Assembly (NCBI GenBank): GCA_029940345.1
Contig: JAOZRC010000118.1
Coordinates: 1 to 11,032 of the forward strand
Source of the DNA: Desulfobacterales bacterium
GTDB taxonomy: Bacteria; Desulfobacterota; Desulfobacteria; Desulfobacterales; JAUCGF01
DNA length: 11,032 nucleotides
Direction: 5' to 3'
The translations under genes and the position numbers were made by a program. Every line of letters begins with the position of its first letter. Position 1 is the stretch's first letter. This document shows positions 4,089 through 11,032 of this stretch, piece by piece. The notes below the pieces were generated by a model. That model saw only the letters and a list, made by a program, of their open reading frames with translations. It made no database searches and had not been told where the DNA came from.

Positions 4089-4135
4089 CAGGCTTTTAAC
4101 GGCAAACGGTTAAAGAATAAAGTTGAAGTGTCTAA

Positions 4136-4295
4136 GAGCCTGTTTGGAAAGTCGTGATCGAAGCGAAAAAGTGTGAGAACGAGGGCTGATTTTCGCAAAT
4201 TTTGGGGCAATAGCCGGCCTATTGGCCTAAAATTTGCGGAAATCAGAACCGTTCTCACGCTTTTGCAGCCGATTTAAGACTTTTCAAACAGGCTC
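4136..4295. mobile_element. MITE-like foldback element with TAA target duplication (IS5-type ends)
   Basis: A 160-bp sequence that is one long imperfect palindrome centred at GCCGGC near 4213-4218. Its ends are GAGCCTGTTTG (4136-4146) and the reverse complement CAAACAGGCTC (4285-4295). The trinucleotide TAA flanks it on both sides (4133-4135 and 4296-4298). A 3-bp TNA duplication with GAG-CTGTTT-like ends is the style of IS5-family subgroups (IS1031/IS427), from memory. There is no open frame for a transposase, so it would need one supplied in trans. Confidence 0.8.
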
Positions 4296-4298
4296 TAA

Positions 4299-5667: not shown

Positions 5668-5692
5668 AAAATGATGTTATGATTCGGTCAGA

Positions 5693-5719
5693 GTCCCATC
5701 GGGACGGCATATTTGTAGT
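5693..5719 (+). repeat. REP-like hairpin unit 2
   Basis: GTCCC-atc-GGGAC hairpin followed by GGCATATTTGTAGT. The stem differs from unit 1 on both arms together while the tail is identical, as in REP-type elements where the fold rather than the stem sequence is conserved. Confidence 0.7.
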
Positions 5720-5750
5720 GTGATTATGCATATTCTGTTATGCTGAAACT

Positions 5751-5770
5751 GATATGCCGTCCTGACAGGA
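5751..5770 (-). repeat. REP-like hairpin unit 3, inverted
   Basis: On the minus strand TCCT-gtc-AGGA is followed by CGGCATAT, matching the start of the unit 1 and 2 tail. It faces unit 2 across about 31 bases, forming a BIME-like inverted pair. Relative to unit 2 one stem pair has changed C-G to T-A on both arms. Confidence 0.65.
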
Positions 5771-5838
5771 TTCTGAATGAATTTCACAGGTTGAATTTTT
5801 TACCCGCTTTTCCATACAATCGCTCTGATGATTAGCTA

Positions 5839-5867
5839 TTGACAAATTTTATCTTTTTAATTAAAAA
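5839..5867 (+). promoter_or_regulatory. Candidate sigma-70 promoter for the HdrA-like gene
   Basis: A perfect -35 TTGACA at 5839-5844, a 17-base spacer and TAAAAA at 5862-5867 as a moderate -10 (4 of 6). It lies in AT-rich DNA about 80 bases before the start codon. The rest of the 5528-5949 gap holds the REP-like units and no recognised operator. Confidence 0.45.
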
Positions 5868-5937
5868 TTTATAGTTGAATAACTTGTGACTTTACACTTC
5901 AATCTTAAAACTTTTATAACGATTAACCTAAATATTC

Positions 5938-5943
5938 AAGGAG
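5938..5943 (+). promoter_or_regulatory. Strong ribosome binding site fixing the HdrA start at 5950
   Basis: AAGGAG with a 6-base spacer to ATG 5950. This near-ideal site leads into a frame that begins with an HdrA FAD-binding motif and meets a TGA at codon 60. That is strong evidence that translation starts here and reads through the TGA. The alternative TTG at 6448 has no comparable site. Confidence 0.85.
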
Positions 5944-5949
5944 TATTAC

Positions 5950-8900
5950 ATGTCAGACCAAGTTATCGGATCCGTATTAGTTGTCGGCGGCGGCATCGCC
6001 GGAATGCAAGCATCTTTGGACCTGGCCGATTCCGGCTATCTGGTTCATCTGGTTGAAAAATCACCCGCAATCGGCGGCGTCATGAGCGAGTTGGATAAAA
6101 CGTTTCCCACTAACGATTGCGCCATGTGAATTATTTCACCCAAACTGGTCGAGGTCGGCCGGCATTTAAATATCAATCTGATCACCTGCGCCGAAGTTGA
6201 AAAAATCAAAGGCGACACAGGTAATTTTACAGTCACACTTAACAAAACACCCCGTTATATCGATCCCTTCAAATGCACTTCCTGCAGCGATTGCGTTGAT
6301 GTATGTCCCGTAACGCTTCCCAGTGAATATGATCAGGGATTCAGTGACCGCAAGGCAATTTATAAAAAATATGCCCAGGCCATTCCCGGAGCCTTCGCAA
6401 TTCAAAAAGCCGATAAAGCCCCCTGTCACCTGGCCTGTCCGGCCGGATTGAACGTCCAGGGATACGTTCAGATGGTGGGTGAAGGCAAGTACAAAGAGGC
6501 CCTTGAGATTATCATGGAAGATTTACCGCTGCCCGGCGTGTTGGGACGAATATGCCCACACGGTTGTGAGGATGCCTGCCGGCGATGCGATGTTGATAAT
6601 CCCGTGGCGATTCGTGATCTGAAACGGTTGGCTGCAGACCAATTCGATCCGCGTGAAATCGAAATTCAATGCCTGCCGCTCAGGGAAGAAACCGTGGCGA
6701 TCATCGGTTCAGGACCGGCGGGTCTTGCGGCGGCCTATCATCTGGCGCGCCGAGGAGTCAAAGCGACCATTTATGAAGCGCTTCCCCAAGCCGGCGGTAT
6801 GCTGCGCGTGGGAATCCCCGAACACCGGTTGCCGCGCGAAGTTCTGGACAATGAGATCGAACTGATCACCAATTTGGGCGTTGAAATTAAAACTGATGCA
6901 CCGCTGGGAGCGGATTTGACTGTGGATGATCTGTTTGATCAAGGCCACAAAGCGGTTTACCTCGCCATTGGCGCCCATAAAGGGATTGAACTGGGCATCC
7001 CCGGTGAAAAATCCAATGGTGTACGTCAGGGCGTGGGATTTTTAAAAGAAGTCAATCTGACCGGTGAAGCGGAAGTCGGCCAAAAAGTGGCCATTATCGG
7101 CGGCGGCAACGTGGCCATTGATGTGGCGCGTTCGGCTGTGCGTCTTGGGGCCAAATCGGTAAATATTGTGTATCGCCGCACCCGCGCCGAAATGCCAGCC
7201 TGGGAGGAAGAAATTGAGGCGACCGAGACCGAAGGCGTTGAAATCACTTACCTGTCCGCCCCGCAGGAAGTGCTGGTGGAAGATGGACGGGTGGTGGGAT
7301 TGCGCTGTATCCGTATGGAATTGACCGAACCGGACTCATCCGGAAGAAAACGGCCGATTCCGATTCCGGGAAGTGAATATGATCTTGAAATCGACCAATT
7401 GATTCCGGCGATTGGCCAGAGACCGGACCTTTCCGCGTTGGAAGATATCGCCGGTCTGGAATTTACACGCTGGGGAACTGCCGAGGTCGATCCGGTAACT
7501 TTCGCAACCAGCCGCGAGGGCCTGTTTGCCGGCGGCGATCTTCAAACCGGTCCCTGGGTGGCTATCGGCGCAATTGCCGCCGGACAGGAAGCCGCCGAAT
7601 CAATCGTACGTTATTTGGATGGCGTCGATATGGCGGACGGACGCGAACCCATTGTCAACGATAACCCGGTTTACCGTCCTGTGCCTCAGAATATGCTCCG
7701 CGAAAAGCGCGTTAAAATGCCCGAACTGCCGGTGGAGCAACGTCAGGGCAATTTTAAAGAGGTGGAGTTAGGTTACGAAACTGATGAAGGCCAAAAAGAA
7801 GCGCACCGCTGCCTCAATTGCGGTTACTGCTGTGAATGTTTTCAATGCGTAGAGGTCTGCGGCCCTGAAGCGGTGACAATTGCAACCCATGCCGAACAGG
7901 CCGAAACCGTTTCGCTTGATGTCGGTTCCGTGATTTTGGCGCCGGGCTTTCAACCGTTTGATCCCTCCTCTTTTGACAACTATAACTACGCCAAACATCC
8001 CAATGTGATCACTTCAATCGAATTTGAGCGCATTCTTTCGGCCACCGGCCCCACCGAAGGTCACCTGGTGCGCATGTCTGACAAAAAGGAACCGCAGAAA
8101 ATCGCATGGTTCCAGTGCGTGGGTTCACGCGATTTAAACCGCTGCGACAACGCCTATTGCTCTTCGGTGTGCTGTATGTATGCGGTTAAAGAAGCGGTTA
8201 TCGCCAAGGAACATGCGGCTGGCGATCTGGAATGCACCATCTTTTATATGGATATGCGCACCCACGGCAAGGATTTTGAAAAGTTCTATAACATGGCCGA
8301 AGATAAACACGGCGTTCGTTTTATCCGCAGCCGGGTGCACACCGTTATTCCGGCACCGGGCTCCGAAGATGATCTGCAAGTCAGTTATGCTACAGATGAA
8401 GGCGAGCTTAAAACCGAAGTTTTTGACCAGATTATCCTATCGGTGGGAATGCAGATATCGCCTGAAATTATCGCTTTGGCCAAACGTCTGGGAATCGAAC
8501 TGACCGACAGCAATTTCTGTAAATCGGACACCATCGATCCGGTGGCAACCTCAAGGGATGGCATCTTTGTATGCGGCGCTTTCCAGGGACCCAAGGATAT
8601 TCCTGAATCTGTCATGGAAGCCAGTGCCGCAGCTTGCAAAGCGGGCGCGATGATCGCCAAGTCAAGGGGCGCTTTAGTCAAAACGATGGAATATCCCGCT
8701 GAAACAGATGTGGCCGGCGAGGAGCCGCGCGTCGGTGTTTTTGTTTGTAATTGCGGTATAAATATCGGCGGTGTGGCCGATGTTCCCGCTATCGCCGCGT
8801 ATTGCAAAGACTTGCCGAATGTAACGTATGTGGAAGAAAACCTGTTCACCTGCTCACAAGACACCCAGGATAAGATGACCGAGGTGATCAAGGAACACAA

Positions 8901-10377
8901 CCTGAATCGTATCGTGGTGGCGGCCTGCACTCCTCGGACGCATGAACCACTCTTCCAGGAGACGATTCGCAACGCCGGAATCAATTCCTACCTGTTCGAT
9001 ATGGCCAATATCCGTAATCAATGCACATGGGTTCATGCTGACAACAAAGTCATCGCTACGGATAAATCCAAGGACTTAGTGCGCATGGCTGTAGCGCGCG
9101 CTTCGCTACTCGCTCCGATTGCCGATATTGCCGTTGACGTCAATAAGTCTTCACTGGTGATCGGCGGCGGTGTTGCCGGTATGACGGCCGCGCTGAGTCT
9201 GGCGGATCAGGGGTTTAAGACGACAGTTGTCGAAAGAACATCCCTGTTGGGCGGTGCCGCCCGGGATATTGGCCATACCTGGCGCGGACAAAGCGTTCCT
9301 GAATTTCTTAATAATTTAGTTGCTAAAGTTGAAAAGCATCCGGCGATAAAGGTGCTGCTCAATGCCAAAATTACGGACGCTTCCGGCTTTGTCGGCAACT
9401 TTGAAACCCAGGTGCGGGTCAATGAAGATGACCAAACCGTTGCGCACGGCGTAACGATCATCGCCACTGGCGGCCAGGCATCTGTCACCGATGAATATCT
9501 TTATAATAAACATCCCAAGGTTACTCGTTGGCACGATCTTGAAAACAATCCAGAACTGCTCGACGGTGCCGAAAGTGTGGTGTTTATCCAGTGTGTCGGG
9601 TCAAGGGATGACCAGCGGCCCTATTGTTCACGATTATGCTGCACCACCTCCATCTACCAGGCCATCGCCATCAAAAAGGACAAACCCGACACCGATGTCT
9701 ATGTCATTTACCGAGATATCCGAACATACGGTGAACGGGAAATGCTTTACAAACAGGCCCGTGAGCTAGGGGTTATCTTTATTAAGTATTCCCTTGATAA
9801 GAAACCCGTGGTGGCCGAACACGGTGACGGCCTCGAAGTGACGGTGTTCGATCCGATTCTTCAACAAACGTTGGCCATCAGGGCGGGCGTCGTCAATCTT
9901 GCCACTGCCATCCAACCGGCTGATAATGAAAAACTGGCGTCGTTTTATAAACTGCCGTTAAATGCCGAAAAATTCTTCATGGAGGCTCATGCCAAATTGC
10001 GACCGGTGGAATTCGCAACGGACGGTGTCTTTTTATGCGGTCTGGCGCACTATCCCAAACCGATAGATGAAAGCATCGCCCAGGCACAGGCAGCGGCCAG
10101 TCGCGCCGTAACCGTGTTGTCACAAGAATCCATCACCATTTCACCGCTGGTGTCCCAGATAGATCGGGAAAAATGTATCGGCTGCGGCTTGTGCGTCGAT
10201 GTGTGCGCGTTTGCCGCCATCCGCCTTGAAGAAGTGGAAGGCAAAGGCTATCGTGCGGAAAACATCTCAGCGTCCTGTAAAGGCTGCGGTCTATGCGCTG
10301 CTTCCTGCCCGCAACAGGCCATTGATATGCTCCATTTTAAGGATGAGCAGATTCTTGCTTCGGTGTGCGCTGCTTAA
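5950..10377 (+). CDS. hdrA: Selenocysteine-containing HdrA-like fusion protein (HdrA + GltD/NfnL-like module + second HdrA)
   Basis: A 1475-residue flavin/iron-sulfur oxidoreductase, probably cytosolic, whose codon 60 (TGA) is read as selenocysteine. Order: FAD motif VVGGGIAG at 11-18; [14 protein letters not shown] at 47-60; [4Fe-4S] ligands C109, C112, C115 and C119; then HdrA-typical RKAIY...AIPGAFAI, after which a GltD/DPYD-like module is inserted (C159, C163, C202, C206, C210, C213; FAD motif GSGPAG at 253-258; NAD(P) motif GGGNVA at 384-389; GLFAGGD at 524-530). HdrA resumes with seven clustered cysteines (621-637) and C737-x3-C741-C742. A second HdrA starts with VFVCNCG at about 931-936 and has FAD motif GGGVAG at 1072-1077 and C1226-x3-C1230-C1231. 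Two C-terminal [4Fe-4S] motifs lie at 1409-1419 and 1443-1453. Likely role: electron transfer between NAD(P)H, ferredoxin and a thiol/disulfide partner, perhaps bifurcating. No HdrB, HdrC or MvhD/FlpD gene is adjacent. A standard gene call would start at 6448 or call the gene broken. Confidence 0.92.
6127..6129 (+). other. In-frame TGA predicted to encode selenocysteine (Sec60)
   Basis: The TGA replaces the second Cys of the HdrA motif DCAMC. Protein similarity to HdrA continues without a break on both sides in the same frame (TFPTNDCAM before; [12 protein letters not shown] after). No frameshift is present and no other stop occurs until 10375. HdrA Sec at this position is known from methanogens and from deltaproteobacterial selenoproteomes. 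Confidence 0.9.
6145..6162 (+). promoter_or_regulatory. Bacterial SECIS element
   Basis: CUGGUC (6145-6150) pairs with GGCCGG (6157-6162) in a 6-bp stem that includes two G-U pairs. The six-base loop is GAGGUC. The loop GGU, a feature of SelB-binding SECIS loops such as E. coli fdhF, begins 26 bases from the U of the UGA, within the usual bacterial range. The element lies inside the coding sequence and specifies conserved HdrA residues at the same time. Confidence 0.8.
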
Positions 10378-10412: not shown

Positions 10413-10489
10413 ATTCCGATTTTGGTTTTTTCGTAACTGGAGTGCTAGCTTTAGCTTGCAAGTTCAGATAGAAAAATCAAAATCGGAAT
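10413..10489. repeat. Foldback sequence enclosing palindromic repeat copy 2
   Basis: The outer arms ATTCCGATTTTGGTTTTTTC (10413-10432) and GAAAAATCAAAATCGGAAT (10471-10489) pair along nearly their whole length. Inside lies the second copy of the element seen upstream of znuA (10426-10462): TTTTTTCG, spacer, GGAGTGC, then TGCTAGC-ttta-GCTTGCA-AG. It sits between the hdrA stop codon and the HEPN gene and could end the hdrA message, insulate the next operon, or be a small mobile repeat. It ends only 14 bases before the HEPN start codon. Confidence 0.7.
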
Positions 10490-10490
10490 C

Positions 10491-10496
10491 AGGTAG
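10491..10496 (+). promoter_or_regulatory. Ribosome binding site of the HEPN gene
   Basis: AGGTAG lies 7 bases before ATG 10504. It supports this start over the upstream TTG at 10456, which falls inside the palindromic repeat. Confidence 0.5.
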
Positions 10497-10503
10497 TGAT
10501 ATT

Positions 10504-10911
10504 ATGGACATGGAGTGCAAGCAAATATCAGCTAAAATAAGCTATTGGATAGAACTATCTGACTACGATATTGATACAGCCAATGCAATGTTAACAAGCA
10601 AACGCTATCTTTATGTCGGATTTATGGCGCATCAGTCTGTTGAGAAAATATTAAAGGCCTATTACGTAAAAGTTTGTGGAAAGACAGCGCCATTTTCTCA
10701 CAGTCTTTCTTACATTGCTAAGAAATCCAAAATTTATGAGGAATTTTCAGAAAAGCAAAAACTATTTATTGATCTGCTGGAGCCATTGAATATTGAATGC
10801 AGATACCCATCTCATAAAGAGCAATTATTGAAAAGTCTGACTGATGAAAAATGCAAAGAAATTTTTAATAATTCAAAGCAATTACAGCAATGGATAAAAC
10901 AGAAATTATAA
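10504..10911 (+). CDS. HEPN domain protein, likely toxin of a HEPN/MNT pair
   Basis: A 135-residue helical protein of the HEPN family (PF05168 type). The N-terminal helix SYWIELSDYDIDTANAML at about 13-30 is followed by the family core GFMAHQSVEKILKAYYV at about 39-55, then PFSHSLSYIA at about 63-72 and a late ECRYPSH at about 98-104. The canonical RNase motif R-x4-6-H is not seen; the nearest match is R100-x3-H104. Activity as an RNase is therefore uncertain. The gene is clearly AT-richer than hdrA, which suggests separate acquisition. Its last 22 bases overlap the MNT gene, indicating translational coupling. In such pairs the HEPN protein is usually the toxin and the MNT protein the antitoxin; this is known for related families and only inferred here. 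The ATG at 10510 is an alternative start. Confidence 0.82.
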   Translation: MDMECKQISAKISYWIELSDYDIDTANAMLTSKRYLYVGFMAHQSVEKILKAYYVKVCGKTAPFSHSLSYIAKKSKIYEEFSEKQKLFIDLLEPLNIECRYPSHKEQLLKSLTDEKCKEIFNNSKQLQQWIKQKL

Positions 10912-11032
10912 CTAAACTTGAGAGATACAAACAACTTCTGGCGCGACAAATGTCATTTGATAAAATGATCCTGTTTGGTTCTTATGCCAAAGGCAATCAA
11001 CGCGAAGACAGCGATGTGGATGTCGCTATCGT
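10890..11032 (+). CDS. Minimal nucleotidyltransferase (MNT) of a HEPN/MNT pair, 3' end cut by window
   Basis: The first 47 complete codons of a polymerase-beta-like nucleotidyltransferase. The nucleotide-binding signature LFGSYAKG is at residues 28-35 and the metal-binding acidic pair is D42/D44 (SDVDVAI), the G-S-x(n)-D-x-D arrangement of the family. It starts inside the HEPN gene (22-base overlap, different frame), so the two are co-translated. Related MNT proteins neutralise their HEPN partner by attaching AMP to it; whether this one does is unknown. It runs off the right edge. Confidence 0.85.
   Translation, partial: MDKTEIITKLERYKQLLARQMSFDKMILFGSYAKGNQREDSDVDVAI

Follow-up and report, generated by a model that had tools for sequence, protein, structure and literature searches.

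The DNA analysed here (the window, 11,032 nt) very probably carries an intact HdrL-type gene at 5950-10377 in which UGA 6127 is decoded as selenocysteine (Sec) through SelB and a SECIS hairpin, and whose product would have the electron-transfer and cluster-ligand roles discussed below. Sequence evidence supports each part of this reading well: the open frame, the SECIS, the pattern of conservation and the machinery for Sec. The gene adds a member to an already known selenoprotein type, and the recoding mechanism is known; the remaining interest lies in whether Sec60 provides a natural example of selenolate ligation to a [4Fe-4S] cluster.

A frame interrupted only by UGA 6127

The frame runs on the forward strand from ATG 5950-5952 to TAA 10375-10377, as read directly and by translation with one TGA read through. 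TGA 6127-6129 is codon 60 and, when it is read as one residue, the product is 1475 aa long. The initial annotation had described this TGA as the only interruption, and no second stop is found before 10375. Its ribosome site and ATG at 5938-5952 hold at base level, and TTG 6448, which it gave as the start called by default, is the earliest ATG, GTG or TTG after the TGA. The AAGGAG also occurs in the sister locus L047 at the same spacing, and all 10 relatives compared have, 177 nt 5' of the TGA, an ATG that follows a purine-rich stretch. Compared with L047, the nearest relative, codons 1-59 differ synonymously at 13 codons and nonsynonymously at 1, and codons 61-166 at 27 and 8, respectively. 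The synonymous excess has the same direction in four further relatives on both sides of the TGA, and from these codon comparisons both sides look translated.

Were UGA 6127 a true stop, the locus would encode a 59-residue peptide and, from a second start at TTG 6448 or beyond, a protein of 1309 residues. A start codon is indeed present at 6448 and truncated forms are listed in databases, but codons 61-166 change mostly synonymously, like the remainder of the gene, and the four ferredoxin cysteines that precede 6448 are kept in 97/97 homologues. The 13 full-length Cys relatives that were fetched run unbroken through the region, and retention of the SECIS would be without reason. We regard a true stop as very unlikely; partial termination at UGA 6127 under selenium shortage is possible.

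Less probable still is a pseudogene, or a TGC or TGT miscalled as TGA in sequencing or assembly. The genome is a draft (6.05 Mb in 1024 contigs, 93% complete), which leaves some room for such errors, but the TGA is common to 77 of 102 non-duplicate loci from many assemblies and is also present in the sister at 92-93% identity. Selection against amino-acid change is seen on both sides, and the frame contains no other stop.

Table 1. Features of the hdrL-type locus, in window coordinates.
Feature	Position	Strand	Basis
Shine-Dalgarno AAGGAG	5938-5943	+	6-nt spacer to ATG 5950; read directly
hdrL-type gene, Sec (predicted) at codon 60	5950-10377	+	Pfam, NCBIfam, PDB sequence alignment
GGGIAG FAD-binding type motif, residues 13-18	5986-6003	+	Motif scan; Pfam FAD/NAD hits within 8-58
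UGA, predicted Sec codon 60	6127-6129	+	Ungapped opposite 5odc_A residue 197; TGA/Cys in loci
Bacterial SECIS stem-loop CUGGUC-GAGGUC-GGCCGG	6145-6162	+	Fold, bSECIS limits, conservation
First-half inserted ferredoxin, Cys109, 112, 115, 119	6274-6306	+	All four kept in 97/97 homologues
GltD/NfnB-like NAD(P)H-binding insertion, ~residues 155-557	6412-7620	+	Pfam PF14691, PF07992; NCBIfam
HdrA N-terminal Fe-S domain, second half, ~residues 924-1063	8719-9138	+	Aligned from 5odc_A residue 2
Glu1118 (GAA) in place of Cys/Sec at the second-half counterpart of residue 197	9301-9303	+	Codon read

Selenocysteine machinery, SECIS and the Sec/Cys comparison

The genome encodes SelA (595 bits, L009), SelB (366 bits, L001) and SelD (376 bits, L010), all above curated cut-offs, and a tRNA-Sec (L014) that scores 73.9 bits where the gathering score is 47. 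All four genes singled out in the initial annotation (selA, selB, selC and selD) are therefore present, among them selB and selC, on which it had made its reading depend. When 14 control genomes were run against the same cut-offs, they were passed by 1 for selA, 2 for selB, 2 for selD and 5 for tRNA-Sec; the tRNA-Sec cut-off is the least selective and the protein matches are thus more telling. UGA 6127 is almost certainly read as selenocysteine. The selD gene (C204:280-1203) has an in-frame TGA of its own and is likely a selenoprotein itself.

The initial annotation had placed a 6-bp stem with a GAGGUC loop at 6145-6162, and the hairpin is exactly as described (CUGGUC 6145-6150, loop GAGGUC 6151-6156, GGCCGG 6157-6162). 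ViennaRNA adds one G-C pair to the stem, which leaves AGGU as the loop. Five stretches over the hairpin region were folded, with energies of -10.2 kcal/mol (39 nt) and -11.2 kcal/mol (49 nt); the three shortest stretches gave z-scores against shuffles between -1.57 and -1.55, the longer ones -0.66 (81 nt) and -0.03 (86 nt). Published bSECIS limits place the hairpin 16-37 nt after the UGA, with a 4-16 bp stem, a 3-9 nt loop, a G in the first two loop positions and an MFE of at most -7.5 (PMC13188914). In our own implementation of these constraints the 6145-6162 element passes, with -9.1 kcal/mol, 7 bp, the loop AGGU and 22 nt from the UGA. The limits are passed by 6 of the 431 TGA triplets of the window, TGA 6127 among them, and by 1044 of 50620 in 80 loci (2.1%; true SECIS included). 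Since up to about 2% of arbitrary TGA triplets pass and the energy is unremarkable in longer contexts, the hairpin by itself is weak evidence. An Rfam scan of 5800-6500 gave 3 matches, none of them a SECIS and all below the gathering score; few bacterial SECIS are modelled in Rfam. A genome-wide scan for the UGA-plus-SECIS pattern gives 5 sites, all without mismatch, and none in the backward-read control.

Homologous loci came from two samples. In one, 58 genomes were searched and yielded 30 loci, one per genome with second copies left out; the other comprised the best 80 of 291 loci found with six peptide patterns, one of which has Cys at the site. Of these 110 loci (L046-L155), L120 was removed because its contig does not include the site, as were 6 duplicates and the locus of the window itself, which leaves 102; the 97-row alignment leaves out 5 of these with at most 1000 residues after the site. 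The codon equivalent to codon 60 is TGA in 77/102 loci and Cys in 25/102, counts that do not amount to a population ratio because both samples were chosen by similarity. TGA is present, for example, in L080 and L114, from the cultured sulfate reducers Desulfosarcina alkanivorans and Desulfonema magnum, respectively. No codon other than TGA or Cys was found among the loci covering the site. The alignment of the TGA with a Cys of homologues, as the initial annotation had proposed, is thus borne out by the 25 Cys loci, and all 13 fetched full-length database proteins likewise have C at the site.

The hairpin follows the codon. Among the TGA loci the 18-nt element is identical in 69/77, carries one loop change in 7/77, and in the remaining locus combines that loop change with one stem change, whereas the 25 Cys loci show 2-8 mismatches to it over the 18 positions. 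All six stem pairs are retained in 76/77 TGA loci versus 1/25 Cys loci, and the mean 24-nt folding energy is -10.3 versus -4.8 kcal/mol. Codon usage behaves in the same way: TGA rows have a single codon at 66, 67, 68 and 70 in 77/77 and at 71 in 76/77, while the 25 Cys rows keep the amino acids at 66, 67, 68 and 70 with mixed codons. Outside the stem the commonest synonymous codon in TGA rows accounts for 26/77 at Ser63, 32/77 at Pro64 and 33 of the 70 rows with Leu at Leu77, although the stem-adjacent codons are also fairly uniform (Lys65 AAA 67/71, His72 CAT 66/77). This comparison, in which the SECIS sequence is kept with TGA and lost with Cys, rules out a chance hairpin. Judged from the alignment, the codon freeze and stem retention in TGA rows are what a SelB-maintained SECIS looks like; the stem is so nearly invariant in these loci that covariation cannot be claimed.

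A quick tree was built on residues 85-560, thus outside the Sec/Cys site (98 rows: 75 Sec including the window, 23 Cys). It requires 6 Sec/Cys changes compared with a shuffled mean of 20.8, at least 4 of them forced by starred branches; as long branches are flagged in the tree, we claim only that several switches occurred.

It might be argued that the UGA specifies a residue other than Sec, either Cys inserted by a tRNA that recognises UGA or Trp under a reassigned genetic code; any reading leaves the frame open, and homologues have Cys at this position. Against this stand the SelA/SelB/SelD/tRNA-Sec set, a SECIS that persists where the codon is TGA and has decayed where it is Cys, and in-frame TGA codons also in selD and in 6/11 MvhD/FlpD matches, both known selenoprotein families. 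Such a reading is highly improbable. The statement of the initial annotation that the gene is intact and uses selenocysteine is supported by the machinery, the TGA/Cys alignment and the conservation of the SECIS.

Domain architecture and the role of Sec60

Pfam, NCBIfam and PDB matches give the order of an HdrA half that lacks the N-terminal domain and has GltD inserted, followed by a second HdrA half; the PDB alignment to HdrA 5odc_A falls in four pieces. The first half consists of a thioredoxin-reductase fold beginning at the FAD motif, an inserted ferredoxin, the GltD/NfnB-like insertion and then the remainder of the fold. The second half has the N-terminal Fe-S domain, a thioredoxin-reductase fold and a C-terminal ferredoxin, and Cys933, 935, 968 and 993 of its N-terminal domain are kept in 97/97 homologues. 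The insertion matches the GltD-type NF009410 above cut-off and, in the PDB, NfnI and the glutamate synthase small chain; a motif scan places the nucleotide motifs GSGPAG at 253 and GGGNVA at 384. The designation as an HdrA selenoprotein in the initial annotation thus stands for the HdrA sequence and the Sec, but the protein is an HdrA–GltD–HdrA fusion rather than a plain HdrA. Scores for the methanogen CoB-CoM HdrA equivalogs fall below their cut-offs in all three NCBIfam models (NF040770, 928.1 bits against 1100; NF041891, 695.3 against 1300; NF041778, 682 against 1400), and so the substrate of the methanogen HdrABC is not to be assumed.

Residue 60 aligns without a gap to residue 197 of the solved HdrA 5odc_A. 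In PDB 9SFI (9sfi_A) the position aligned to residue 60 is an X, which we infer to be Sec. Position 57 is Cys and position 60 is Cys or Sec in 97/97 homologues, with Cys57 near the site (CAMU). Cys197 of one HdrA copy has been described as a ligand of the [4Fe-4S] cluster of the partner's N-terminal domain, and fused or tandem HdrA pairs divide the N-terminal domain and Cys197 between members (PMC9012536). The same complementarity is seen here, where the first half has Sec60 without the N-terminal domain and the second half has the domain without a Cys at the position of 197. No Cys is found within residues 1098-1129 in any of the 70 homologues that cover the second-half site, as a ligand-complementarity model expects. 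Residue 60 is therefore probably a [4Fe-4S] ligand equivalent to Cys197 rather than a classical redox-active thiol, an assignment based on homology at one residue and on aligned sequences. The initial annotation had called the residue of the DCAMC motif redox-active; its placement at the Cys position of homologues stands, and an Fe-S ligand is the more likely role.

A real Sec60 could instead act as a redox-active selenol beside the FAD, as in disulfide oxidoreductases. The site follows an FAD motif in a thioredoxin-reductase-like fold and lies near Cys57, and the pairing of Cys at 57 with Cys or Sec at 60 throughout the 97 homologues would suit such a role. On the other hand, published work on the solved HdrA assigns the equivalent Cys197 to a cluster as ligand (PMC9012536), and the residue is missing from the second half, the one with the N-terminal domain, in all 70 covering homologues. 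We consider a selenol of this kind unlikely, though far from negligible.

With residue 60 taken as a ligand, a working scheme can be drawn. SelB would decode UGA 6127 as Sec, guided by the SECIS hairpin at 6145-6162; the GltD insert would bind NAD(P)H, and electrons would pass via Fe-S clusters to the HdrA flavin for bifurcation or confurcation. By analogy with published HdrA structures, Sec60 would replace Cys197, the ligand lent to the N-terminal-domain [4Fe-4S] cluster of a partner. Here the cluster of the second half would take Sec60 of the first half as its completing ligand, and the chain would be its own heterodimer partner. We further propose, tentatively and at somewhat less than even likelihood, that Sec60 is an in-cis selenolate ligand that tunes or gates the cluster of the bifurcation arm instead of serving as a redox thiol, that the Sec version is retained by relatives from many family-level groups, and that Sec and Cys were swapped several times. 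The N-terminal-domain cluster has been placed on the low-potential path (PMC9012536), unlike in PMC12350162, where the low-potential shuttle cluster HA3 is placed in the HdrA C terminus. Cys197 is numbered in a structure called M. wolfeii in PMC9012536; 5ODH, whose sequence is the same as that of 5odc, is called M. thermolithotrophicus in PMC12350162. In the literature covered, mostly outside subscription journals and in part as excerpts, we found no statement that Sec in HdrA ligates a cluster. Should Sec60 be a cluster ligand, a comparison of the enzyme's Sec and Cys forms would test directly how a selenolate affects cluster potential in flavin-based electron bifurcation.

Annotation, genomic setting and known systems

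The initial annotation had expected automatic gene calling to lose the N-terminus, and for HdrL-type relatives this is reflected in the database. The top 33 proteins, among 120 listed of 7996 matched, are 1299-1403 aa long with 87-95% query coverage, and the two that were inspected (P0003, P0004) start after the TGA position; some of the 33 may be shortened by contig ends. Proteins of at least 1478 aa number 13 of the 120 listed (7996 matched), and all 13 have C at the site. A frame called at 6448 misses the FAD-type motif GGGIAG (5986-6003). Comparable N-terminal loss has been reported for HdrA of some methanogens (PMC12054007). The locus is a clean example of such truncation by gene callers, in which a large electron-transfer enzyme loses Sec as well as one FAD site and one ferredoxin cluster.

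By the DLAG motif scan, mvhD is absent from the 655 nt between the hdrL-type gene and the contig end and from the 1500 nt after the sister gene L076. The motif is found within 900 nt downstream in 59/63 other loci, and in L081 too by eye; in many of these homologues the downstream mvhD has its own in-frame TGA. The genome contains 11 MvhD/FlpD matches, 6 of them with one TGA, and an MvhD partner could thus act in trans. Directly after hdrL, a HEPN-domain gene (10456-10911) overlaps the start of a nucleotidyltransferase (Polbeta/NTP_transf_2) gene (10890-11032), and together they look like a HEPN/MNT toxin-antitoxin pair. At the other end of the window, 2-1564 on the minus strand holds genes for a zinc/manganese-type ABC transporter ATPase and a substrate-binding protein, with the NCBIfam matches shown all below cut-off. 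Intergenic inverted repeats at 4135-4296, 4186-4246, 2735-2907 and 5682-5782 (arms of 19-33 nt, 81-95% complementary) are possibly small mobile or terminator-like elements.

Elsewhere in the genome, the contig pairs C808/C407 and C342/C775 (L028, L025, L032, L031) end or start at the UGA-SECIS stretch of paralogous hdrA genes. The contig ends share residues and letters; the repeat is thus the probable point at which the assembly broke, and the six TGA-bearing HdrA stretches of the genome may represent only four genes. Among the homologous loci, the frame after hdrL in L084 is an HdrA whose matching motif also contains TGA (TNDCAIU), giving a tandem of Sec-HdrL and Sec-HdrA. In L108, of the Cys type, the hdrL-like frame is apparently broken at the N-terminal-domain stretch, with a separate 538-aa frame 21 nt on; the break is possibly a frameshift.

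Sec in HdrA was published in 2006 and in HdrL in 2009 (PMC1794560, PMC2702500), and HdrL1 and HdrL3 of Desulfobacterium autotrophicum HRM2 are listed as selenoproteins (PMC2702500). As here, HdrL1 and HdrL3 join heterodisulfide reductase to glutamate synthase, have a predicted NADH site and reported Sec, and belong to a deltaproteobacterial sulfate reducer. The present chain likewise combines HdrA domains with an NAD(P)H-binding GltD-type domain. By the published description, through which alone HRM2 is compared, mvhD lies next to hdrL in that organism, whereas a HEPN-domain gene follows here (PMC2702500). We label the protein HdrL-type by architecture, since the missing downstream mvhD is an accompanying feature rather than a domain. 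Sec-HdrA of methanogens and deltaproteobacteria also shares the Sec, but is found in hdrA-frhD-frhG-frhA operons, and the accessible text makes no mention of a GltD insert (PMC1794560).

Archaeal type III HdrA and HdrA9/10/11 have a GltD/NfnB-like domain within the HdrA ferredoxin domain (PMC12054007, PMC9012536). The same trait is seen here, with ferredoxin cysteines at 109-119, GltD at ~155-557 and the HdrA alignment resuming at 626. Type III HdrA belongs to methane-metabolizing archaea, with nine sequences and no mention of Sec in the available portion of PMC12054007, which stresses GXGXXG where the insert here has GSGPAG and GGGNVA. Finally, ANME fused HdrA3/HdrA4 resembles the present protein in dividing Cys197 and the N-terminal domain between two HdrA halves, but the order of the halves is the reverse of that found here, and neither a GltD insert nor Sec is mentioned in the excerpted text (PMC9012536).
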